Part shown: positions 1 through 24,242 of the stretch, piece by piece | Layout of the letters: each line of letters begins with the position of its first letter | Numbering within the stretch: the stretch's first letter is position 1 | Source of the DNA: Stenocarpella maydis | Lineage: Eukaryota > Ascomycota > Sordariomycetes > Diaporthales > Diaporthaceae | Assembly: GCA_002270565.1 (NCBI GenBank) | Contig: NQMI01000280.1 | Coordinates: forward strand, 1-24,263 | Direction of reading: 5' to 3' | DNA: 24,263 bases | The notes under the pieces: model-generated | Seen by the model: only the letters and a program-made list of their open reading frames with translations | What the model was told of the DNA's origin: nothing | The model's database searches: none | Translations under genes and position numbers: made by a program

Positions 1-97
1 TCGTCCGAATTCGCCTCAGAGCACCATACTGCGACCCTGCCGAAACACACACACGCTGAACTGAATGCTATTCTATAGCACAAATTCATCAGAATAA
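1..97 (-). repeat. Repeat C, copy 1 (partial, inverted)
   Basis: Read on the - strand, this stretch matches the first part of the repeats at 21150 and 23617. It starts with a GTGCTAT...ATAGCAT inverted motif, runs through a short GT microsatellite, and continues to GGTGCTCTGAGGCGAATT, where the window ends. It resembles the 21150 copy most closely (same GT-run length and same CGCAGTATGG). It is not AT-biased like its neighbours. The junction with the family B gag remnant is at about position 98. The nature of the element is unknown. Confidence 0.8.
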
Positions 98-945
98 TAT
101 ATAGTTATTTTAACTTATTAGTATTCTTTTAGAATAGGTCTTTATAGTTGCTTCCTGGGTTGGCAGCATTCTTTAGAGAAGTATCCTTATCTTCTATAAT
201 TATAATACTTCTAGCTATTATTAGAGCATTATTATGCTGTATTAAGTTTTATAAGTTCTAGATGGATACTATAGGTAGTTCCTTATTATTATTTAAGTAA
301 TTAGTTATTAACAGATATAGCTATAGTAATATATTTTATAAATATATTAGGCCTATCTACTTTAGAAAGCTTATCTTTAATATCTTTTTTAAATCCTTTA
401 TAGAACTAGCTTATAAGTGCTTTATCTCCCTAATTAATATAGGTAGTAAGTTATTTAAAGTCGATAGTATATTTAGAAGGTAAGCCTTACTATTTAAGTT
501 ATGTAAGCTATTATTTAATAATTTATTTCTCATCTAGGTTGCTAAAGGCATCCTTTAAGGCTTATTTAAAGTTATTATATTTCCTAAAGATAGCTTTAGT
601 ATTATTATCCTAATCCGTTTTATTATTCTCTAAGTAGTTCCTAAAAGTAGATTTAAACCAAGCAAGGGTATTTCCTTTAAGTTAATATCTAGCAAAAATA
701 ATCTTACTATAATTAATCCTAAACTAAGTTTCATAATATTAGAAATAAGAACAATATTAAGTAAGAAATCCCTAGAGGATTCCCTTATCTCCTTTATAGG
801 GGCCGGGCTTATCCATCTTGTAAGCTTTAGCTTGCTAAACTATATAAAGACAGTTAATTTCCTTCTACAGAGCACCAATCTATAGGGCTATTTCCTAGGC
901 ACTTATAATCTAGGCTTATCTATTATTAAAGGAGGTAGTTAACAT
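98..945 (-). pseudogene. Family B retrotransposon gag remnant (left arm)
   Basis: On the - strand a start codon at 945 opens a frame broken by many TAG and TAA codons. It keeps gag landmarks: an A-W-F block near 655-670 (in the right-arm copy it reads LAWFKSTFRNYLENN) and a block near 340-390 read as DIKDKLSKVDRP in the right-arm copy, typical of the C-terminal half of Ty3/Gypsy gag. It follows the family B LTR at the spacing expected of a 5' LTR, leader and gag. It is cut off at about 98 by repeat C, so protease, RT and integrase are absent. Assignment rests on motif pattern and context. It is non-functional, with decay consistent with RIP. Confidence 0.7.
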
Positions 946-1004
946 TATATCTTTATATTACTTAATTAGTTATATACATAGCTATTCTAAATAGGAATTA
1001 TCAA

Positions 1005-1463
1005 AATGTTATAATTATACTAAATCTTTATAGGGTTCAATAAGTAACCTATAGGGTTTATATTAGCAGAGCGGCGCAGAGGCAGCACATAACTCAGTTG
1101 CAATATACAAAAATACTATTCACAAAGAGAGTATAATCAAAAGCTATAAGGCTATCCAATTCGTAAGACTAAATACTTAGATTAATAACTAAAGAGTCTA
1201 TTCTATAAGAGCTATCTATTATAGTGATAACCACGTTTATATATATATTCTGACTCTTCAGTAGCTCACTTAGCTGACTTGATGAGCCAGGTAAGCTGGC
1301 TCACTTGGCTCACTTGGTGATCCAAGTGATCCCTTCTGGGCAGGTGGGTCCTTGACCCTAACCCTATCCTAACACATCCCGTTATCTTATGTCTGCGGGG
1401 TTGCATCGTAGCAGTTGGTCCTGATTGCCTTGGATGCCGGGGTGCCATTGTGTTGGTTCATAA
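1005..1463 (-). mobile_element. Family B LTR (5' LTR, left arm)
   Basis: On the - strand the LTR begins TGTTATGAACCAACAC at 1463, very close to the start of the family A LTR at 13232 (TGTTATGAACTAACACG). It shares the U3 motif GATGCAACCCCGCAG and a telomere-like TAGGGTTAGGG stretch (1356-1374), followed by short GGATCACTT and GAGCCAAGT repeats. The end near 1005 is inferred from alignment with the leader of family A and is approximate. The gag remnant follows about 60 bases further on. No second LTR for this copy is visible. Confidence 0.7.
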
Positions 1464-1838
1464 CAATTAGTACTAACTTTTATTAATTATTTAGCACTAA
1501 GTAGGTGCTAGGGTAAATAAAAGTAGCTAAATATAGGAAAACTATCTTATTTATTAATATAATTTACTTATTAATAAACTATATTATATAAGTTTTATTT
1601 ATAAAAAATATAAATTTATAATCTTATACTTATTTTAAATATTATTTAAATAATTACTTAATTATTAATTAGAAAGGTTTGTAGTATTGTATATATTTAT
1701 ATATAAAGTATAAATATATAAAAGTTTAGTCTTTTTTTTAAAATAAAAACAAAAATAAGGAAAGTAATATATAAGTATAAAATATATATTTACTATTAAC
1801 TGGTATTCGTACTCCTTATCTTGTCTTCATTTATTGCT
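1464..1838. other. AT-rich gap with a dispersed-repeat fragment
   Basis: Almost pure A/T, with no coding potential seen. Bases 1466-1545 (TTAGTACTAACTTTTATTAA and what follows, to a CTAGGGTA motif) resemble 22052-22110 and, inverted, 22745-22815. This marks a fragment of the same dispersed repeat next to the family B LTR. The mirrored copy is at about 10925-11229. Confidence 0.45.
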
Positions 1839-2418
1839 CTATTGATTACGTGACCTTCTAATACAAAGAAGATATTTAGGCTCTCGTGCTAGGCGAAAAA
1901 AAATTAATCTAGGAGGGAGTGTATGTAGTGTCAGCTGAACGGGACGCTGAACTGGAGTTCCCGCCGGCAAGGCCGGGAGTTTATTTTTTAAACGGTTTAT
2001 GTTGGAATAGCACTTAGGATCGCACATCAGTATGGGGACGAGGTGGCTTAGTCAGCCACCTAGGTACCGCACGGAGGCCTTAAGCCCCTACCGTGTGCTT
2101 CCCCTCCCTCGTTTCAGAACCTAGATAGATCATCGAATAACAGAACCAGTTCGACAACCACTGTACGTACGTACCAACAGCCATATGGCAAAGGCCATTC
2201 AACAGTTTAAGAAGTTTTGTGGCGTGATTATGAACGAAGCCAGGTAGAAACCAAGATCAACATAGTTTTCATCCTCCTCTTAAATATTCACCGTATTCTC
2301 TGTTTTCAGTGATTCTACGTCCCATCTCAGTTGACCTGGTTCATATCTACCTAGGTACGAACCAAAGTTCTCCTACGAGCAAAATCTCCTCACACGCCAA
2401 GTCTCACCCGGGCACATT
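1839..2418 (+). promoter_or_regulatory. Upstream region of the dehydrogenase
   Basis: GC content rises to host level here. Features visible: a hairpin at 2041-2061 (AGGTGGCT and AGCCACCT around a 5-base loop), a CCGCCGGCAAGGCCGG inverted motif near 1962-1977, a TTAAATATT box near 2280, and a pyrimidine-rich tract ending TTTTCAG at about 2310. The last could be a TATA-like region followed by a 5'-UTR splice acceptor. A 62-codon open frame on the - strand (1839-2027) has no recognisable features and is not called as a gene. Promoter function is inferred only from position. Confidence 0.4.
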
Positions 2419-3599
2419 ATGCGCGCGCTCCGATACTATGGCACTAGGGACATCCGCTTGGACGATATCCCCGACCCAGCTTGTCGGCCGGGCTGTGTCA
2501 AGATCAAGCCAGAATATGTTGGTATTTGCGGGAGCGACATGTAAGTCCCTTGACGCGTTGCTCAGTCATGTATGATCGGGTTTCCCATGCCTTATGGCGT
2601 ACCTAAAATCACCTATGCCCAAACCTGAAATTCTTAAGCTAATTCAAACCACTGGCCAGTCATCTTTACTTTGGTGACGTGAATATAACTGACTTTGTGC
2701 ACCCACTGGCCAAGGAGAGGTTGCCGTTTATCTTTGGTCACGAGTTCGGGGGGGTGGTGACTGAGGTTGGGGATGGCGTTACACGAGCGCAAGTCGGCGA
2801 CCTCGTGGCCGTCCGTCCATCACTTTATGACGGCAGCTGCGAGGCCTGCGTTGCGGGACACACCAATGTGTGCCAGAACTCAGGCTGGTTAGGGATTAAC
2901 GCCAGCGGGGGAATGGCTGAGTCGGCCGTGTTCGACGAGAATGCGGTGTTCTGCCTTCCCCACGGGACGAGTCCTGAGGTCTCGGCCTTGGTCGAGCCGC
3001 TTGCCGTGGGTTGGCACGCGACACGCTTGGTTAGGGATTTGACCTCCACTTCGACAGCTCTCATAACGGGCGGCGGCCCAATTGGCTGTGCCATCTACCT
3101 TGCCCTCAGAGCCCAAGGCCTGACGAGAATCGTGATCAGCGAGGTCTCGAAGGCGCGACGAGACTGCCTGGCGACACTCGGCGTTGAGCACATCCTCTCC
3201 CCGGCCGATACCGATGTCGCGGCTACAGTCCGTGAGCGATTCGAGGCAGGCGGCGCCCACGCGGTCTTCGACTGCGCCGGGCTCCCAGTCACGCTTAGCA
3301 CGGCCCTGGAGGCGCTGCGACCGAAGGGCACTATCGTCAATGTCGCCCATCGCGCCGAGCCCGTTCCGCAAGTGGATCTCAACCTGTACCTGGCTAAAGA
3401 GGCAACCCTTGTGAGCTCGATCTCGTACCAGGACAAGGACTGGGAGGAGGTTATTGAGGCCGTGGGAAATGGGAAGATCAAGCCGGAGGCAATGGTCACG
3501 GGCAGGATTCAGTTGCAGGATGTGGTTGAGAAAGGAATCGAGGTTTTAGCTAGTCCCGAACACCAACATTGCAAGCTTTTAATTAGGGTGCAACAATAA
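2419..3599 (+). CDS. Zn-dependent medium-chain dehydrogenase, (R,R)-butanediol/sorbitol dehydrogenase-like
   Basis: Two exons, 2419-2540 and 2660-3599, give 353 residues, the usual length for this NAD(H)-dependent family, whose members interconvert alcohols or polyols and ketones in the cytosol. The start MRALRYYG is typical. The GroES-like domain carries the catalytic-zinc residues Cys37 (in GICGSD), His68-Glu69 (GHEF) and Glu153 (VEPLAVGWHA). A structural-zinc loop with Cys101, Cys104 and Cys112 follows the butanediol-dehydrogenase pattern, with Asp98 near the place of a first cysteine. The Rossmann motif GGGPIG is at 178-183 and is followed by ISEVSK, whose acidic residue favours NAD over NADP. 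No signal peptide is seen. It is the only intact host gene here, with GC-rich codons and RIPed retroelements on both sides. Substrate cannot be fixed from sequence; L-threonine, arabinitol or xylitol dehydrogenase are alternatives. Confidence 0.88.
2541..2659 (+). other. Intron of the dehydrogenase gene (119 nt)
   Basis: The donor GTAAGT follows GGGAGCGACAT. The acceptor CCAG at 2656-2659 precedes TCATCTTTACTTTGG. Splicing joins AT and T into an Ile codon and gives GSDIHLYFGDVN, the continuous family sequence. A possible branch site, AGCTAATTC, lies about 20 bases before the acceptor. Without splicing the first 41 residues, including the zinc-binding Cys37, would be lost, so the intron is well supported. 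Confidence 0.88.
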
Positions 3600-4135
3600 A
3601 CACACTCCCGATTGTAACTTAATATTACAGTCACGTCTTTCTCCTCTAAGACCCTTGCTTATTATCCAGATATTTGATGGTAATAAAGGCTTCCTCCTAA
3701 CAACTTATGAATTTAAATAATATGATATGATTTATTTTTATCGTCTGCTTTATAACCTGCCAAAAATTGATCTTTGTGGTTATGCTCGCTGTATTGCATC
3801 CATGGTAAGGCTGATGAATAGCCGTTGGTCAGAATAAATAAGTTCAATTTAGACTTACACCGTCCTCACTTCAACACAATCTAATTCTGACCTCATAATG
3901 TCTTCATATCCAGGCACAGCTGACCAGGATGGCTGACTTTGGAAGTGTCGGTAGGGGTGGGAAATCTCGGCCTCGGGTACGTCTTATGCGAACCTGACTA
4001 CGTGTGGCTGAGTTGCAGAGATCCTGACAGGCTAAGGATCATCCAACTGAAAACGCTGTCTGTGACAAGCGAAGTGATGCCCCCCCCCGGTAAATTAGCC
4101 GTTTCCGCACGTGCCACCAAAATTTGGTGGGCGGC
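3600..4135. other. 3' flank of the dehydrogenase up to the A' insertion
   Basis: The likely 3' UTR contains AATAAA at 3682-3687. Beyond that is host-like sequence of intermediate GC with no convincing gene. An open frame from 3939 runs into the LTR and has no recognisable features. A C9 run (4080-4088) and a palindrome CCACCAAA/TTTGGTGG (4114-4130) lie just beside the retrotransposon LTR end. Confidence 0.5.
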
Positions 4136-4602
4136 CAGTATAATGATCAAAGGGTTTTCAGAGTACATAATCCTGAAAGATCAAGGGTTTATATTCAGAA
4201 TACGTTATTAGGCAGTTATTAAGCAATATTATTAACTAACAATAATCACTAGCTGTGGGCTATTTAATGTTAGATTGTATTAGATTGAGATTGAAGAGTC
4301 TGTTTTATAAAATCTATTTATATAGTGATAACTATATTTTTATATATTCTGATAATAGTAGGAATCTAGGCTCGCTGGTTATTCTTATTATCCTTGGTGG
4401 TGGTGTTAAGTTGGGCTTTGGTGTCGGATAGCTGGGCTAGCCAGCTATCCAAGCTATCCATAAGCCATAGGTGGGTTCCCAACCCTAACCCTGGAGCATG
4501 CGGGCTCCATATATAAGTAACTGCGGGGTCGCGCCATTATATACGTTTTCAACGTTCGGGCCTATATCTAGGCCCCTGGGGTGCATCGCTATTAGCTCTA
4601 CA
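4136..4602 (-). mobile_element. Family A' 3' LTR (left arm)
   Basis: On the - strand the LTR runs from TGTAGAGCTAATAGCG at 4602 to GATCATTATACT at about 4136. Its second half (ATATAAACCCTTGATCTTTC, then CTTTGATCATTATA) matches the ends of the family A LTRs at 13695 and 19780. Its U3 half differs but keeps an ACCCCGCAG motif and a telomere-like GGTTAGGGTT (4481-4492 on the + strand). A purine-rich tract (4603-4620 on the - strand, AAGAAGAAGGAGGGGTAG) precedes it, as expected of the polypurine primer site of a 3' LTR. Confidence 0.8.
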
Positions 4603-4769
4603 CTACCCCTCCTTCTTCTTTAATTTTTAAAAATTCCGTAAGTTATTTCCGCTTATTGCATCTTCATTTATGCCTTTCTAATCCGTCATATCATCTAAAG
4701 TTAAGGATTCTTAAGTCGCAAAGCCCGCTCATTATACTCTAAAAACTAAGCGAGGATTCCCTTCTTCTT

Positions 4770-5321
4770 TTTTTTTTTTTTTTGCCATTATATACCTTCT
4801 TATTCCTTCTAAAAGGCCATAGCATTTCATCCTACCGGTATCGCCTTTAGAGTCTTCCCACAACAAGTGTATATACCTAGGTGGTCGAGACATAATTAGA
4901 GGGTTCTCTTCTTATACCTTAGATGTGGGAACAACACTAGAGAATGAAGTCCAAGCTAAAGGCCGCTAAGGAGGAACATCATGTGATTACGCGATTAAGC
5001 ATCTAAGAAAGTAGAAGCATATAGTATAATAAGATAATGCATGCTATTTATTGCGAAATCAACAATCTGGAGGAGTTAGAGCTGTTATAAAAATAGATGG
5101 TTAAGGACAGCGAACGGACCCCAATAATCCGCTAAGGCTATAAAAAGGAATTCTATAGAGGAGGCTGGTGGGATGGTAGCACAGGAGGCATAGCTGCATT
5201 CCAAGGTAAAGTAGAGTTTTTAACTAAAATATAATTGGTTGGGGGGACGCTGCCCATTCAAACATTTTTAAATATTAGTGCTAAAGGAAATATGCCTATA
5301 AGTGGCTCATCTAGTATCTAA
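4770..5321 (+). pseudogene. Antisense ORF remnant of family A' (left arm)
   Basis: Opposite in strand to its host retrotransposon and lying between chromodomain and 3' LTR, this decayed frame keeps pieces of the antisense ORF of element A (18572-19107). Recognisable are MHAIYCEINNLEELELL (near 5035-5090), EEAGGMVAQEA (near 5158-5190) and FLNISAKGNMPISGSSSI before a stop at 5319-5321. The element A counterparts are MLRAIYCSLLNLDELD, EEAGGMVVQEA and FLNVSGEGNMPVGGLSSA. At least two frame changes and several TAG/TAA codons break it. The 5' boundary is approximate. Confidence 0.65.
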
Positions 5322-6369
5322 AATTTTGCTAATAGCTAAATACACTTAGTATGCTAATCAACTGGTAGAATATTCGATTAGTCGGACGGCCTGCATGGTT
5401 TCTACTAGTCGAGCAGTCAACTAGTTTTACTACTAGGCCATTCAGTAGGCCTATTGGATTTTCTGGGCTATTTATTAGTTGTTTCAGCCGAGGCTGGGTT
5501 CTAGGCCTCGAAATCCTTTAAGAGTTACCTTATATAATAAAGTTCTATTCTGTCAATATATTTTATTTTATATTATATATTTGTAAGGACAGATTCTTCC
5601 TTAGTATTATCTTAAGTTTATAATAAAAATAAAATACTTTTATTTCTTATTATATTTATTATAGTTTTTATTTTTTTTTTTTTTTTTATCTTTTTTATGC
5701 TTTTTAAGGAGAAAATATAAAAATTATTATATTATTTATTCCCCTAGTATAAGACTTATAGTCCTACCTTAGTACTCTAATATTAATTAGAATTTTAAAT
5801 AAGCTGATTTTTTTATAGTTAAGCTTATTACTAGTTTTTAGTTTTAATATTTTAGTAAAAAAAGTAGACCTTATCTCCCTCCTTAAGAATTGTCTTTTAT
5901 TCTTTTCTAATTCGCATATTTATTTTTATTCCTATATAAAAGAAAGTTCTGCTAAATTCTTTTTAAATCATCCAATTTATATTACTTTCTTATGCTAATT
6001 CCGCTAGGGTATCATCTAATAGTAATTATAATTGCCTAAGGTTCAATCCATAGAGTACAAAGAAAGGTAACTATCTAGTTGTGCAAAGTTATCACACTAT
6101 TATATGCAAACTATGCTAGTGGTAGCATTCAACCCATCCTATAATTTTAACATAATATTAAAGGTATTTTTATAACCAGTATTCCATCAATTTTCCCATA
6201 TAATAGGTATACTTATTAAGAAGCTTTATTTGCTAAGCTATTTCAATCAGTAATTTCCAGAAGTTAAATTAAATTTTTTTTTTTTTTATTATAGATTTAA
6301 ATAATCTTATATGACCAGCTTCTATATAGTGCTTTATAAATGAAAACATATATACAAGTTTTATACTAT
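5322..6369 (-). pseudogene. Family A' integrase C-terminus and chromodomain remnant (left arm)
   Basis: Read from 6369 downwards, the decayed frame shows late integrase landmarks in order: an FWK-type block near 6260, WVEC near 6140, PFFVLYG at 6049-6068, and LKEGDKVY near 5880, the GDKVY block that precedes the GPF segment of chromoviral integrases. A broken chromodomain follows near 5560-5650. After it comes the proline/serine/threonine-rich tail shared with element A (5340-5530). Long T runs and many stops show decay. The fragment starts abruptly at 6369, the palindrome centre. If that centre is an adapter, the truncation is not biological. Confidence 0.7.
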
Positions 6370-6408
6370 ATCTCTTCTAATAAAAACCGGAGGGGGGGGA
6401 GAAGAGAT
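6370..6408. other. Palindrome centre resembling a SMRTbell hairpin adapter
   Basis: The 39 bases run ATCTCTTCT, AATAAAAACC, GGAGGGGGGGG, AGAAGAGAT. The standard PacBio hairpin adapter, as I remember it, has ATCTCTCTC, AAC repeats, GGA repeats ending in GGAAAA, then GAGAGAGAT. Order and composition match throughout with a handful of single-base indels and substitutions. Immediately outside, 6347-6369 and 6409-6431 are perfect 23-bp reverse complements. This is what a missed-adapter fold-back read would show. Confidence 0.75.
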
Positions 6409-7500
6409 ATAGTATAAAACTTGTATATATGATCCCATTAATAAAGCACTAAATAGATGCTGATAAATAAAAGAGTATTTAAATTTATAATAAAAAAAAA
6501 AAAAAAATAACTTAACTTCAAAATATTAAATTTTAATAATTATAAATAATTTTTTTTTTATATTTTTTAAGTAATAAATTGAAAAATTTATTTAATACTG
6601 ATTATAAAAATATTTTTTTTTTAATCTTTTTTTAAAATTATAGGATGGGTTGAATGCTACTACTAGTATAGTTTGCTTATAATAGTGTAATAACTAGCAC
6701 AACTAGATAGTTACCTTTCTTTGTACTAAAAATGGATTGAACATTTAGGCAACATAGTTTCTACAAAATAAAACCCTAGCGAAATTAGCGCAAGAAAGTA
6801 ATATGAATAAGATGATTTTAAAAGAATTTAGCAAAACTAAAACTAAAACTAAAATAAAATAAAAATAAATATGCGGATTAGAAAAGAATAAGGGACAGGT
6901 CTTCTTAAGGAGGGAGAGAAAGGTCTACTTTTTTTACTAAAATATTAAAACTAAAAACTATTTAAAAAAAAAAACAACAAAAAAAATAAAAAAAAAAAAA
7001 AAAAAAATCAAAAAAAAAAAAAAAAAAAAGGTACCAACTATAAGTCTTATACTAAGGGAATAAATAATATAATAATTTTTATATTTTCTTCTCAAATTAG
7101 CATAAAAAATATAAAACTCGAAATATAAATTAAAACTATAATAAATATAATAAGAAATATGAAGTAGAAAAGATTATAAACTTAAGATAATACTAAGGAA
7201 TAATAGAGTCCTAATTAAATAAAAGGAATATAAAGCGAAAACATATAGGACAGAACAAAACTTACGCATGCAGGCAACTCTTAAAGGATTTCAAGGCCTA
7301 GAACCCAGCCTCGGCTGAAACAACTAATAAATAGCCCAGAAAATCCAATAGGCCTACTGAATGGCCTAGTAGTAAAACTAGTTGACTGCTCGACTAGTAG
7401 AAACCATGCAGGCCGTCCGACTAATCGAATATTCTACCAGTTGATTAGCATACTAAGTGTATTTAGCTATTAGCAAAATTTTAGATACTAGATGAGCCAC
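6409..7500 (+). pseudogene. Family A' integrase C-terminus and chromodomain remnant (right arm)
   Basis: Mirror image of 5322-6369. It shows GWVECYY near 6645, CTTTCTTTGTACT near 6715, KLAQESNMNKMILKEFSK near 6780-6835, a broken GDKVY-equivalent near 6905-6930, chromodomain start KYEVEKIINLR near 7155-7190, and the tail LLKDFKA, then KQPRKSNRPT, to 7490. Long A runs at 6967-7029 interrupt it. It probably represents the same genomic copy as the left arm. Confidence 0.6.
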
Positions 7501-8040
7501 TTATAGGCATATTTCCTTTAGCACTAATATCCAGGAATCTTCCAATTAGCATTGTCTCTTAACCAACTATATTTTAATTAAAAACTCTACTTTACCTTGG
7601 AATGCAGCTATGCCCCCTGTGCTACTATTCCACCAGCCTCCTCTATAGAATTCCTCTGTATAGCCTTAGCGGATTGCTTGGCAATCCGTTCGCTTAATCT
7701 GAACCTTCTATTTTCCTAACAGCTCTAACTCCTCCAGATTGTTGATTTCGCAATAAATAGCATGCATCATCTTATTATACTACATGCTTCTACTTTCTCA
7801 GATACTTAATCGAGTAATCACATGATGTTCCTCCTTAGCGGCCTTTAGCTTGGACTTCATTCTCTAGTGTTGTTCCCACTTCTTAGGTATTAGGAGAGAA
7901 CCTTATAATTATATCGCGACCACCTAGGTATATACACTTGTTGCGGGAAGAGTCTAAAGGCGATACCGGTAGGATGAAATGCTATGGCCTTTTAGAAGGA
8001 ATAAGAAGGTATATAATGGCGTTTTTATATAATGAAGAAA
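7480..8040 (-). pseudogene. Antisense ORF remnant of family A' (right arm)
   Basis: Mirror of 4770-5321. The - strand shows MHAIYCEINNLEELELL near 7695-7765, followed by decayed EEAGG-type sequence near 7620-7640 and a C-terminal block near 7480-7530. A short insertion (TCCAGGAATCTTCCAATTAG region, 7530-7560) absent from the left arm restores the spacing seen in element A. This suggests that in at least one place the right arm preserves sequence missing on the left. Confidence 0.5.
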
Positions 8041-8206
8041 AGAAGAAGGGAATCCTCGCTTAGTTTTTAGAGTATAATGAGCGGGCTTTGCGACTTAAGA
8101 ATCCTTAACTTTAGATGATATGACGGATTAGAAAGGCATAAATGAAGATGCAATAAGCGGAAATGACTTATAGAATTTTTGAAAATAAAAGAAGAAGGAG
8201 GGGTAG

Positions 8207-8677
8207 TGTAGAGCTAATAGCGATGCACCCCAGGGGCCTAGATATAGGCCCGAACGTTGAAAACGTAAATAATGGCGCGACCCCGCAGTTACTTATATAT
8301 GGAGACAGCATGCCCCCGGGTTAGGGTTGGGAACCCACCTATGGCTTATGGATAGCTTGGATAGCTGGCTAGCCTAGCTATCTGATACCAAAGCCCGACT
8401 TAATACCACCACTAAGGATAGCAAGGATAACTAGTGGAGTTCTTTATATGTCTATTAAAAAATAGATAATAATTATATAGTTATTACTATATAGATAGTT
8501 TTTTATAGAATAGACTCTTTAGTTCTGTATCTTATACAATCTAATGTTTAAAGAGCCCACAGTTACTAATAATTATTAGTTAATAATATGCTTAATAAAC
8601 TGCCTAATAACGTATTCCGAATATAAACCCTTGATCTTTTAAGTTTATGTACTTGGAAACCCTTTGATCATTATATT
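8207..8677 (+). mobile_element. Family A' 3' LTR (right arm)
   Basis: Starts TGTAGAGCTAATAGCG after a purine tract (8189-8206) and ends near TTGATCATTATATT. Mirror of 4136-4602. Contains GGGTTAGGGTTGGGAACCC at 8318-8336, where the telomere-like motif abuts a GGGTTGGGAACCC inverted repeat. Confidence 0.7.
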
Positions 8678-9199
8678 ATGGCCGCTTTGCGCCAAATTTT
8701 GGTGGCACGTGCGGAAACGGCTAATTTACCGGGGGGGGGCATCACTTCGCTTGTCACAGACAGCGTTTTCAGTTGGATGATCCTTAGCCTGTCAGGATCT
8801 CTGCAACTCAGCCACACGTAGTCAGGTTCGCATAAGACGTACCCGAGGCCGAGATTTCCCACCCCTACCGACACTTCCAAAGTCAGCCATCCTGGTCAGC
8901 TGTGCCTGGATATGAAGACATCATGAAGACCCTGTCTCTTACCCTGATGTTTAAGAGACAGGTGTAGTCTAAATTGACTTATTTATTGACCAACGGCTAT
9001 TCATCAGCCTTACCATGGATGCAATACAGCGAGCATAACCACAAAGTCTTTGGCAGGTTATAAAGCAGACGATAAAAATAATCTAATATTTTTAATCATA
9101 AGTTGTAAGGAGCCTTTATTACATCAAATATCTGGATAATAAGCAAGGGTCTTAGGGAGAAAGAGTGACTGTAATATTAAGTTACAATCGGGAGTGTGT
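8678..9199. other. Mirrored 3' flank of the dehydrogenase, with a Tn5-end-like pair
   Basis: Corresponds to 3600-4135 reversed. Bases 8932-8961 hold CTGTCTCTTA and TAAGAGACAG separated by 10 bases. This replaces about 30 bases of unrelated sequence at the matching place in the left arm. The two 10-mers equal the outer ends of the Tn5 mosaic end used in transposase-based sequencing libraries. No gene is seen. Confidence 0.6.
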
Positions 9200-10312
9200 T
9201 TATTGTTGCACCCTAATTAAAAGCTTGCAATGTTGGTGTTCGGGACTAGCTAAAACCTCGATTCCTTTCTCAACCACATCCTGCAACTGAATCCTGCCCG
9301 TGACCATTGCCTCCGGCTTGATCTTCCCATTTCCCACGGCCTCAATAACCTCCTCCCAGTCCTTGTCCTGGTACGAGATCGAGCTCACAAGGGTTGCCTC
9401 TTTAGCCAGGTACAGGTTGAGATCCACTTGCGGAACGGGCTCGGCGCGATGGGCGACATTGACGATAGTGCCCTTCGGTCGCAGCGCCTCCAGGGCCGTG
9501 TAAGCGTGACTGGACCCGGCGCAGTCGAAGACGCGTGGGCGCCGCCTGCCTCGAATCGCTCACGGACTGTAGCCGCGACATCGGTATCGCCGGGGAGGGA
9601 TGTGCTCAACGCCGAGTGTCGCCAGGCAGTCTCTCGCGCCTTCGAGACCTCGCTGTCACGATTCTCGTCAGGCCTTGGGCTCTGAGGGCAAGGTAGATGG
9701 CACAGCCAATTGGGCCGCCGCCGTTATGAGAGCTGTCGAAGTGGAGGTCAAATCCCTAACCAAGCGTGTCGCGTGCCAACCCACGGCAAGCGGCTCGACA
9801 AGCCGAACCTAACTCGTCCCGGGGGAAGCAGAACACCGCATTCTCGTCGAACACGGCCGACTCAGCATTCCCCGCTGGCGTTATCCCTAACAGCCTGAGT
9901 TCTGGCACACATTGGTTGTCCCGCAACGCAGGCCTCGCAGCTGCCGTCATAAAGTGATGGACGACGGCCACGGGTCGCCACTGCGCCGTGTAACGCTCCC
10001 CAACCTCAGTCACCACCCCCCCGAACTCGTGACCAAAGATAAACGGCAACCTCTCCTTGGCCAGTGGGTGCACAAAGTCAGTTATATTCACGTCACCAAA
10101 GTAAAGATGACTGGCCAGTGGTTTGAATTAGCTTAGTTTGGTGCATAGGTGATAGTACGCCATAGGCTGGAAACCCGTCATTGACTAACGCGTCAAGGCA
10201 AGTCGCTCCCGCAATACCAACATTGCTGCTTGACACAGCCCGGCCGACAAGCTGGGTCGGGGATATCGTCCAAGCGGATGTCCCTAGTGCCATAGTATCG
10301 GAGCGCGCGCAT
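9200..10312 (-). pseudogene. Frameshifted copy of the dehydrogenase (right arm)
   Basis: Same gene as 2419-3599 in reverse, from ATG at 10310-10312 to TAA at 9200-9202. At least ten single-base deletions break the frame, such as GCGGTCTTC to GCGTCTTC, GTGATCAG to GTGACAG and GGCTGGTTAG to GGCTGTTAG. A short deletion lies in the exon 1 equivalent (CAAGATCAAGCCAGAATATG reduced to CAAGCAGCAATG). The last 75 codons (9200-9427) are intact and identical to the left copy. Indels without C-to-T bias are unlike RIP decay. The copy is most easily explained as unpolished sequence of the same single gene read on the other strand; a true decayed duplicate is the alternative. Confidence 0.7.
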
Positions 10313-11229
10313 AATGTGCCCGGGTGAGACTTGGCGTGTGAGGAGATTTGGCGCTCGTAGGAGAACTTGGGTTCGTACCTAGGTAGATATGAACCAGGTC
10401 AACTGAGATGGGACGTAGAATCACTGAAAAAAGAATACGGTGAAAATTCAAGAGGAGGAGAAAATATGACAGACTCAGGTTTCACCTGGCTTCGTTCATA
10501 ATCACGCCACAAAACCTCTTAAACTGTTGAAAGCCCTTGGCCATATGGCTGTTGGTACGTACGTACAGTGGGGTTGTCGAACTGGTTCTGTTATCGATGA
10601 TCTATCTAGGTTCTGAAACTAGGGAGGGGAAGCACACGGTAGGGGCTTAAGGCCTCCGTGCCGGTACCTAGGTGGCTGACTAGCCACCTCGTCCATACTG
10701 ATGTGCGATCCTAAGTGCTATTCCAACATAAACCGTTTAAAAAATAAACTCCCGGCCTTGCCGGCGGGAACTCCAGTTCAGCGTCCCGTTCAGCTGACAC
10801 TACATACACTCCCTCCTAGATTAATTTTTTTTCGCCTAGCACGAGAGCCTAAATATCTTCTTTGTATTAGAAGGTCACGTAATCAATAGAGCAATAAATG
10901 AAGACAAGATAAGGAGTACGAATACCAGTTAAAAGTAAATATATATATTAATATATATTACTTTCCTTTAATTTTTGTTTTTTTTTAAAAAAAAATAATT
11001 ATATTTTATTTATATATATATAAATTATACATACTACAAACCTTTCTAATTAAAATTAAGTAATTATTTAAATAATATTTAAAATAAGTATAAGATTATA
11101 AATATATTTTTTATAAATAAAACTTATATAATATAGTTTTTAATATTTATATAATAAATAAGATAGTTTTTAATAGCTACTATACCCTGCACCTACTAGG
11201 CTAAATAATTATAAAAGTAAACTAATTGT
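10313..11229. other. Mirrored upstream region and AT-rich gap
   Basis: 10313-10920 repeats 1839-2418 reversed, including the AGGTGGCT hairpin (imperfect here) and a block identical to 1839-2027. 10925-11229 is the AT-rich gap equivalent to 1464-1838, with small indels. No gene is seen. Confidence 0.6.
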
Positions 11230-11630
11230 TATAGAACAACCACCAAATGGCACCCGGCATCCCAAGGCAAAATCAGAAACTGCTACGATGCCACCCGCAA
11301 TAAGAATACGGATGTTTGGATAGGGTTAGGTCAGGACCCCCCTGCCAAAAAGGATCACTTTGGATCACCAAGTGAGCCAAGTGAGCCCACCCTTACTGGC
11401 CTCATAGTCACTAAGGGGCTCTGAAGGGTGGAATAATAACGGACATTATCACCAAATAGATGCTCTATAGAATAGACCTGTTATTAATCTAAGTATTAGT
11501 TTCCTACTGGAACCTTGCGTGATTAACCTCTGGAAGTATGTTGATATTCCAACTGAGTTTGTGTGTTGCCGCCCTCTGCTATAAAACCCTATAGTATATT
11601 ACCCCTATCTCTTATAAAGATTTAGTATAT
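11230..11630 (+). mobile_element. Family B LTR (right arm)
   Basis: Begins TGTTATAGAACAACCACC, a noisy version of the left-arm start. TAGGGTTAGG lies at 11321-11330 and CAAGTGAGCCAAGTGAGCC near 11370. Differences from the left arm are dense small insertions and deletions. The end at about 11630 is approximate. Confidence 0.6.
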
Positions 11631-11698
11631 TAAAATTAAAAATAATAAATAAAATATAATTTAGTAAATTATGTAACTAATTATAATATAAAGATATA

Positions 11699-12660
11699 AT
11701 GTTAACTACCTCCTTTAATAATAGATAAGCCTAGATTATAAGTGCCTAGGAAATAGCCCTATAGATTGGTGTTGTAGAAGGAAATTACTGTCTTTATTAG
11801 TTTAGAGCTAAAGCTTACAAGATGGATAAGCCCGGCCCCTATAAAGAATAGTCCTCTAGGTTTTTCTTACTTATATTTGTTTAATTTATTATTATTTTTT
11901 TTTATTTTTTTTATTTTAATTATATAAGATTATTTTTGCTAGATATTAATTAAGGAAATACCCTTGCTTGGTTTAAATCTACTTTTAGGAACTACTTAGA
12001 GAATAATAAAACGGATTAGGATAATAATACTAAAGCTATCTTTAGAATTATAATAACTTTAAATAAGCCTTAAAGGATGCCTTTAGCAATCTAGATGAGG
12101 AAAAACTATAATAATAATATATAATTATTAAGATGTACTTACTTTGGATATAAACTGCCTATTAAGCAACTTACTTTATATATTGTAAAAACAAAAAAAA
12201 AAAAAAACCTAGTTTTTATTTAAATTAAGGTTAAATAAGATATTAAAGATAAGCTTTCTAAAGTAGATAGGCCTAATGAATTTGTAAAATATATTGCTAT
12301 AGTTATATATATTCATAACATGTTATTGGATAATAATAAGAGTATTAGTATAAGAATCCTGGAAACTAATGGAATACCTAATATTAACTTAATAATGGCA
12401 AGAAAAACTACTATAAGGGTAACTTCTATAGCAAATAGTAATAATGATAAGGAACTGTTTATAGTACTCGTTTAGGACTTATGGAACTTGATGCGGTATA
12501 ATGATGCCCTAATAATAGCTAAAAGTATTATAATTGCAGAAAATGATGATACTTCTTTAAGGAATACCACTAATCTAGAAAATAACTATAAAGATCTATT
12601 CCAGAAGAATAATAATAGGTTAATATAATTATACGTTATAAATAGCCTAGATAATATAGC
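11699..12660 (+). pseudogene. Family B gag remnant (right arm)
   Basis: Starts at ATG 11699 (MLTTSFNN). Landmarks visible are MDKPGPYK near 11820, LAWFKSTFRNYLENN near 11965-12010, DIKDKLSKVDRPNEFVKYIAI near 12240-12300, and LMELDAV-type sequence near 12475-12500, which in gypsy elements precedes the zinc knuckle. Stops are numerous. From about 12100 it differs from the left arm by substitutions and insertions of tens of bases (for example about 12345-12440), so this part looks like a separate copy of the family. Confidence 0.65.
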
Positions 12661-21140: not shown

Positions 21141-21149
21141 TTGTGCTAT

Positions 21150-21710
21150 AAAATAGCATTCAGTTCAGCGTGTGTGTGTTTCAGCAGGGTCGCAGTATGG
21201 TGCTCTGAGGCGAATTGGGATGATTGATAATGGTCTGGACAACTTTGTATTAAATGAAGTTAGGCTTCTGTAAGCCCTCCTTATATACCCTCCGATGTTG
21301 TCTTACCCCTGGGCACGCTGCGGTAGGCTCTGGTGCAAATTTGCAAATGCTGGAAAATTCGCCCTTCCAATATACCATCTTTGGTTCCAAGCAACTAGCC
21401 AACCATAGCCCTAGTAATGCTCAAATTGAGTATATATAAACTTCAGAAATCAAGCTATCCAATGTACTAAGTTATATACTTTTTGGATAAGAAATAAGGG
21501 TAATGCAGAGGTTTAAATTAAGGTGTAAATGCAGGCCAAAATAATTGACTTACGGCCACTAAACTCATCTTGCGTTATGCACGCACTGGGCGTACTTAGC
21601 GAAAATCGCCTGACTTGCAAGTCTAGGGTAACTCCTTGCTAAAAAGTCTAGGGTAACTCCTTGCATGAAGTCTAGGGTAACTCCTTGCTGAGCGGTTCCG
21701 TTTAACAATA
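21150..21710 (+). repeat. Repeat C, copy 2
   Basis: GTGCTATAAAATAGCATTCA opens a conserved first module (to about 21315). A middle part differs entirely from copy 3. A conserved last module (about 21508-21705, from AAGGTGTAAATGCAGG to GAGCGGTTCCGTTTA) closes it. The last module ends in three tandem copies of GTCTAGGGTAACTCCTTGC (21621, 21646, 21670; period 24-25). No ORF longer than about 60 codons is seen, and none is shared between copies. A TATAAAA element lies at the start. Confidence 0.8.
21621..21688 (+). repeat. Three tandem GTCTAGGGTAACTCCTTGC units
   Basis: Perfect 19-base cores at 21621-21639, 21646-21664 and 21670-21688 with short variable linkers. The same array, more diverged, is at 24142-24207. 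The core contains TAGGGTAA, reminiscent of but not equal to a telomere repeat. Confidence 0.9.
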
Positions 21711-23616: not shown

Positions 23617-24242
23617 AATATAATTCTGATGAATATGTGCTATAAAATAGCATTCAGTTCAGCGTGTGTTTCGGCAGGGTCGCAGTCAGTGTGGTGCTCT
23701 GAGGTGAATTGGGACGATTGACAGTGGTCTGTACAACTTTGTATTGAATTTAGTTGGGCTTCTGTAAGCGCTCCTTATATGCCCTCCGCCGTCGTCTCAC
23801 CCCTGGGTCCGCTGCGTCGGCTCGGCCAATTTATGAAAGCGAAAAGTCTCGCCTCTTCAACCACACAGCTTTGGTCTCTTAAGCACCACAACTCATGAGC
23901 CGCTTGAAGCACGTCCTCATACTAAAGTACATTATAACTTTTGTCGTTTCGTTCAGATATTCTCTGCTATCTCTACATGCACAGTAGTCTTTAGTCTATT
24001 AGTTGTACGACGTATAGGTAGGAGCTGTTATAGTCTGATTTAAGGTGCAAATGCAGGGCAAAATAATCGACTCACGCCACCAAACTCATCTTGCGTCACG
24101 CACGCACTGTGCGTACTTAGCGAAAATCGCCTGACTCGCAGGTCTAGGGTAACTCCATACAACGAAGTCTAGGGTAAATCCTTACAACGAAGTCTAGGAC
24201 TCCTTGCCGAGAAACACGCCGCTGAGCGTTCCGTTTACTAAT
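23617..24242 (+). repeat. Repeat C, copy 3
   Basis: Begins TTCTGATGAATATGTGCTAT, the same junction sequence found inverted at about 75-98, and carries the same first module (to about 23825) and last module (about 24040-24235) as copy 2. The middle 23825-24035 is unrelated to copy 2 and much less AT-biased. The last module ends with three tandem units at 24142, 24167 and 24192, then GAGCGTTCCGTTTA. Less mutated than copy 2 and probably younger. No protein is recognised. Confidence 0.8.

Follow-up and report, generated by a model that had tools for sequence, protein, structure and literature searches.

It has been described that SMRTbell adapters missed during sequencing give rise to palindromic reads (PMC6218980), and one of five error types listed for assemblies is an inverted duplicate with adapter sequence beside it (PMC8864876). 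How might such an error have shaped the locus considered here, a large mirror-image repeat around positions 6370-6408 of the contig analysed? We propose that the polymerase would have read one strand of a library insert, rounded the hairpin adapter at the insert end and returned along the other strand; the SMRTbell adapter would have gone unrecognised, supposedly because it was badly read, and insert, adapter and reverse complement would have been assembled as one molecule. A later short-read correction would have been patchy and would have left long identical stretches among uncorrected ones. The locus resembles a missed SMRTbell adapter (UniVec NGB00972.1) in that an inverted duplicate flanks an adapter-like sequence, the order of blocks in this sequence is right, and its edges fall where homology ends; it is unlike one in that the adapter is corrupted, the arms are unequal as copies, and the left outer end comes from another element copy. 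The same architecture, an inverted duplicate adjoining an adapter in a contig, defines error type D of HiFiAdapterFilt, although the cases described there concern HiFi reads and a near-exact adapter (PMC8864876), whereas no exact or near-exact adapter is present at 6370-6408 and thus this centre would pass a vector screen. Palindromes from whole-genome amplification are also inverted-repeat chimeras in long reads (PMC6218980), but in that described situation no central adapter is to be expected. In our judgement, which is based on sequence and not on read depth, the mirror is likely an artefact of reading or assembly and not DNA of the organism, and a read folded back at a missed SMRTbell adapter is its highly probable source.

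The window is the entire contig C199, 24,263 bp long, in an assembly of 53.5 Mb and 312 contigs (the other contigs carry labels such as C4 and C211). The best named relatives of a dehydrogenase in the left arm, at 83% to D. amygdali among the best 120 of 1554 hits, belong to Diaporthe, which suggests that the host is likely a fungus of the Diaporthe group. On the forward strand the left arm of the mirror occupies 500-6369, and the right arm, on the reverse strand, 6409-12130, both with approximate outer limits. The first-pass annotation had described the arms as perfectly reverse complementary from the first base outside the centre. This holds for 23 bp, where 6347-6369 (forward strand) pairs with 6409-6431 (reverse strand), and it does not hold farther out, where the identity of the arms is 0.70-0.98 per 250-base block (left positions 501 to 6389) and long identical stretches of up to 336 bp are interleaved with poor ones. 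The arms look like one sequence whose second reading has been corrected in patches. It is to be noted that such patchy identity does not prove an artefact: a real palindrome would show it equally if it were young and one of its arms had been corrected poorly. The outer left end (1-500, forward strand) is not the mirror of the right side and resembles an element copy on C4, with identities of 0.82-0.99 per 100-base block at 101-500 and 0.86 at 1-100, while the right arm has no match to this C4 copy. Since these outer 500 bp or so come from a different element copy, the contig end is not a pure mirror but another join. It had also been claimed that the right arm is the one that does not exist in the genome. 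We do not carry this over: the contig extends about 12 kb past the right arm, while outside the left arm only the approximately 500 bp of the different element copy lead to the contig end, and the spurious arm may be either of the two.

What decides between an artefact and a real palindrome is the centre, 6370-6408 on the forward strand. Its 39 bases consist of a 9-bp stem, a 21-nt loop and a 9-bp stem, and are best taken as a corrupted remnant of the 45-nt SMRTbell adapter in the orientation of the reverse complement of the adapter oligo. The letters of the adapter are printed in PMC5218489 and PMC8864876. When the 39 bases are aligned over the full length of the reverse-complemented SMRTbell blunt adapter, 34 matches are obtained in 46 columns; a 12-long adapter stretch GGAGGAGGAGGA comes to lie opposite the 12-long GGAGGGGGGGGA, and the order of blocks is that of the adapter, namely stem, AAC-rich stretch, CGGAGG and stem. 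The local score against the adapter is 19.9, which was reached by none of 5000 full shuffles, none of 3000 in a second run (z 7.6) and none of 20,000 random hairpins built with a 9-bp stem and the letters of this loop, and the adapter read backwards scored 8.4. In a harder control, in which the stem was kept and the loop alone shuffled, 26 of 5000 reached the score, and therefore the likeness comes partly from composition and partly from order. The next best place in the window scored 15.0, and among the other loci retrieved the highest score was 15.9, with L071, which is the same place as 6370-6408, set aside. Nine other library adapters behaved like noise against the centre (z -1.73 to 0.31; the adapter letters confirmed in print are those of the SMRTbell and ring adapters), and thus we dismissed its identification as a decayed Nextera junction or as an adapter of the 454, TruSeq, Ion or ONT type. 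Across the whole assembly, neither the 45-mer nor a 26-base adapter core was found with up to three mismatches (0 matches each, 0 in the controls), and a loose stem/GGAGG/stem pattern was found twice (control 1), at 6370-6408 itself and at a place on C236 that by eye is not adapter-like. The centre of the mirror thus matches the SMRTbell sequence in a corrupted and not in a near-exact form, and since no further remnant was found in the assembly, nothing else there shows the use of PacBio data.

The arms meet within a multi-copy element, LTR-retroelement-like by eye, whose other copies tell where the genomic sequence stops. When the left arm is aligned locally, its homology stops at 6369 with the C211 and C28 copies and one base later, at 6370, with the C289 copy. 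The right arm ends at 6409 against one copy, that on C211, while its aligned stretch against C28 falls short of the centre. These three copies are those reaching the centre; most of the 39 matches listed besides the two arms go no farther than query position 744 (window 6273). Past these left-arm edges the C211 and C28 copies run into GCTAGCTTC or GCTGGCTTC and the C289 copy into GTGCTAGCTTC, a shared natural continuation. Thus, homology ends on both sides right where the adapter begins, at 6369/6370 for the left arm and at 6409 for the right, and because the copies continue there with different sequence, the 39 bases do not belong to the element. That they are element sequence was considered and rejected, since the copies differ past the edge and the natural continuation is like the 39-mer only at z 1.05, with 488 of 3000 shuffles equally good. 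The 39 bases, as judged from these alignments, begin at the very base where an adapter would be ligated. An adapter-like sequence sitting exactly where the element sequence stops argues that the inverted duplication is likely a fold-back read artefact, and the same proposal of the first-pass annotation is supported by this together with an adapter similarity beyond the shuffles and the nine other adapters.

The gene carried by the mirror leads in the same direction. The left arm contains, on the forward strand, an open frame of 306 aa for a zinc-type alcohol dehydrogenase-like gene (2679-3599), and its mirror in the right arm (9201-10091, reverse strand) has an interrupted frame and differs from the left one through lost bases only. 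Over the 956 positions of the second exon (left 2643-3598), 927 are identical and the remaining 29 are bases that the right arm lacks, with neither a substitution nor an insertion. Raw PacBio errors are mostly insertions, whereas the right-arm copy shows losses only, and this counts against the missed-adapter account. A homopolymer bias was not found among the 29 lost bases, 16 of which equal a neighbour against a background of about 47%. Which arm departs from its family? An approximately 206-bp dispersed repeat (2000-2207, forward strand) was used for this question. The arms differ in it at 14 columns, and at 13 of these the right-arm state occurs in none of 18 other copies, the 18 being taken from the 38 other matches listed. 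Apart from this comparison, the repeat is near-identical (91-100%) at no fewer than 38 other places in the assembly.

The inner part of the mirror behaves differently. The multi-copy element fills 4131-6369 on the forward strand of the left arm, where it is cut off at the centre, and 6409-8690 on the reverse strand of the right arm, where it is cut off at the same element position. Between left positions 4131-5530 and the right arm there are 101 substitutions, 65 of them transitions, and 35 gap positions in 1400 positions, a difference of about 10%. In a multiple alignment, C211 agrees with the left arm in 61 and with the right in 57 of 127 arm-versus-arm substitution columns, and with neither in 9; among five other copies the same columns show both states in 41, the left state only in 42, the right state only in 37 and neither in 7. 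The even split of C211 is not explained by one molecule read twice, unless the arms had been mis-corrected from other copies. Against all five copies, 46 gaps are common to both arms and 12 more are confined to the left arm, the right arm having none of its own; the 46 in common are therefore not independent errors of two passes. We read this pattern as correction with reads from other element copies plus a shared consensus, to which real divergence is an alternative. Within the inner right arm, at 6490-7035, A/T runs replace a sequence that is mixed in the left arm and in the C211 copy; this local homogenising resembles the change of GGAGGAGG into G runs in the centre. Beside the element edge, a 74-bp stretch (4054-4127) recurs at many places with 78-100% identity, and its copies often come in pairs on opposite strands, separated by a few kb, in the manner of mobile-element ends.

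Could the palindrome be real after all? A true inverted duplication would be produced if replication or repair had folded back at a short inverted repeat in the element and left 39 bp of filler at the joint, and the genome would then carry a recent palindrome of about 12 kb with the dehydrogenase gene and flanking elements, an adapter-like 39-bp hairpin in its centre and element halves diverged by conversion with other copies. We regard such an origin as improbable, and such a genome as equally so. The transition-rich substitutions and the 41 columns with both states in the inner element would suit it, as would the differing outer flanks of the arms and a natural short inverted repeat in the C211 copy, which past 6369 reads ATACTAT, 14 bases and ATAGTAT. 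A fold-back at this place would, however, leave the natural 14-base spacer. A genuine fold-back has as its spacer the local sequence that follows the breakpoint, whereas here the natural continuation differs from the 39-mer and is no nearer to it than the many shuffles that do equally well. Moreover, a real duplication gives no reason for the SMRTbell similarity, nor for a gene copy with so many losses and not one substitution. The missed adapter is for us still the better account of the centre.

Besides the centre, another library adapter has left its trace in the right arm. A 30-base sequence at 8932-8961 (forward strand), opposite to which the left arm has other sequence, consists of two mosaic ends head to head with 10-bp inverted ends. 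The entire 30-mer can be derived by deletions alone from the 38-bp Tn5/Nextera-type ring (junction) adapter, a 38-mer that PMC7357533 gives as a ring adapter for circularisation, and is a decayed remnant of it; random middles pass this subsequence test in about 1% of cases. Assembly-wide, the Tn5 mosaic end has 36 matches with at most two mismatches, including 15 exact ones, and the control gave 0. Head-to-head pairs number eight, and those on C50, C287 and C290 are exact 38-bp junctions; junction adapter is also left on C74, C12, C18, C233 and C245. Thus, library adapter has survived in this assembly, although mosaic ends come from a short-read library and do not show PacBio use.

This junction remnant and the C4-like outer left end make the contig a patchwork, and one could suppose that neighbouring inverted element copies were wrongly bridged by a mis-assembly around a chance or unknown hairpin whose adapter likeness is luck. 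The loop-only shuffles that reach the adapter score speak for such luck; the random hairpins, among which none reaches it, speak against it. The gene region at 2210-4130 has 38 matches in the assembly, of which two are full-length, both being the arms of the mirror, and the other 36 are short repeats. Since the mirror contains a gene region that the rest of the assembly lacks, two unrelated element copies would not suffice, and we find this account very hard to believe. No more credible is a palindromic chimera that arose when the genome was amplified ahead of sequencing and that lacks a central adapter: whole-genome amplification is described to make inverted-repeat chimeras (PMC6218980) and a short natural inverted repeat is present at the joint, but a natural spacer or none would be predicted, not 39 bases with SMRTbell similarity.

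If the fold-back at a missed SMRTbell adapter is true, a single arm would exist in the genome, one arm would have to be dropped from the assembly, the dehydrogenase gene would be single copy, and the two truncated elements would be one element broken at the library end; no palindrome biology should then rest on contig C199. The corrupted adapter is too divergent for a 3-mismatch search, and testing whether large inverted duplicates have an adapter-like centre would be a cheap safeguard. As to the outer parts of the contig, a repeat with GTGCTATA and CAGTTCAGCGTGTGTG motifs occupies 1-83 and stands inverted at 21141-21223 and, by eye, at approximately 23640-23720.
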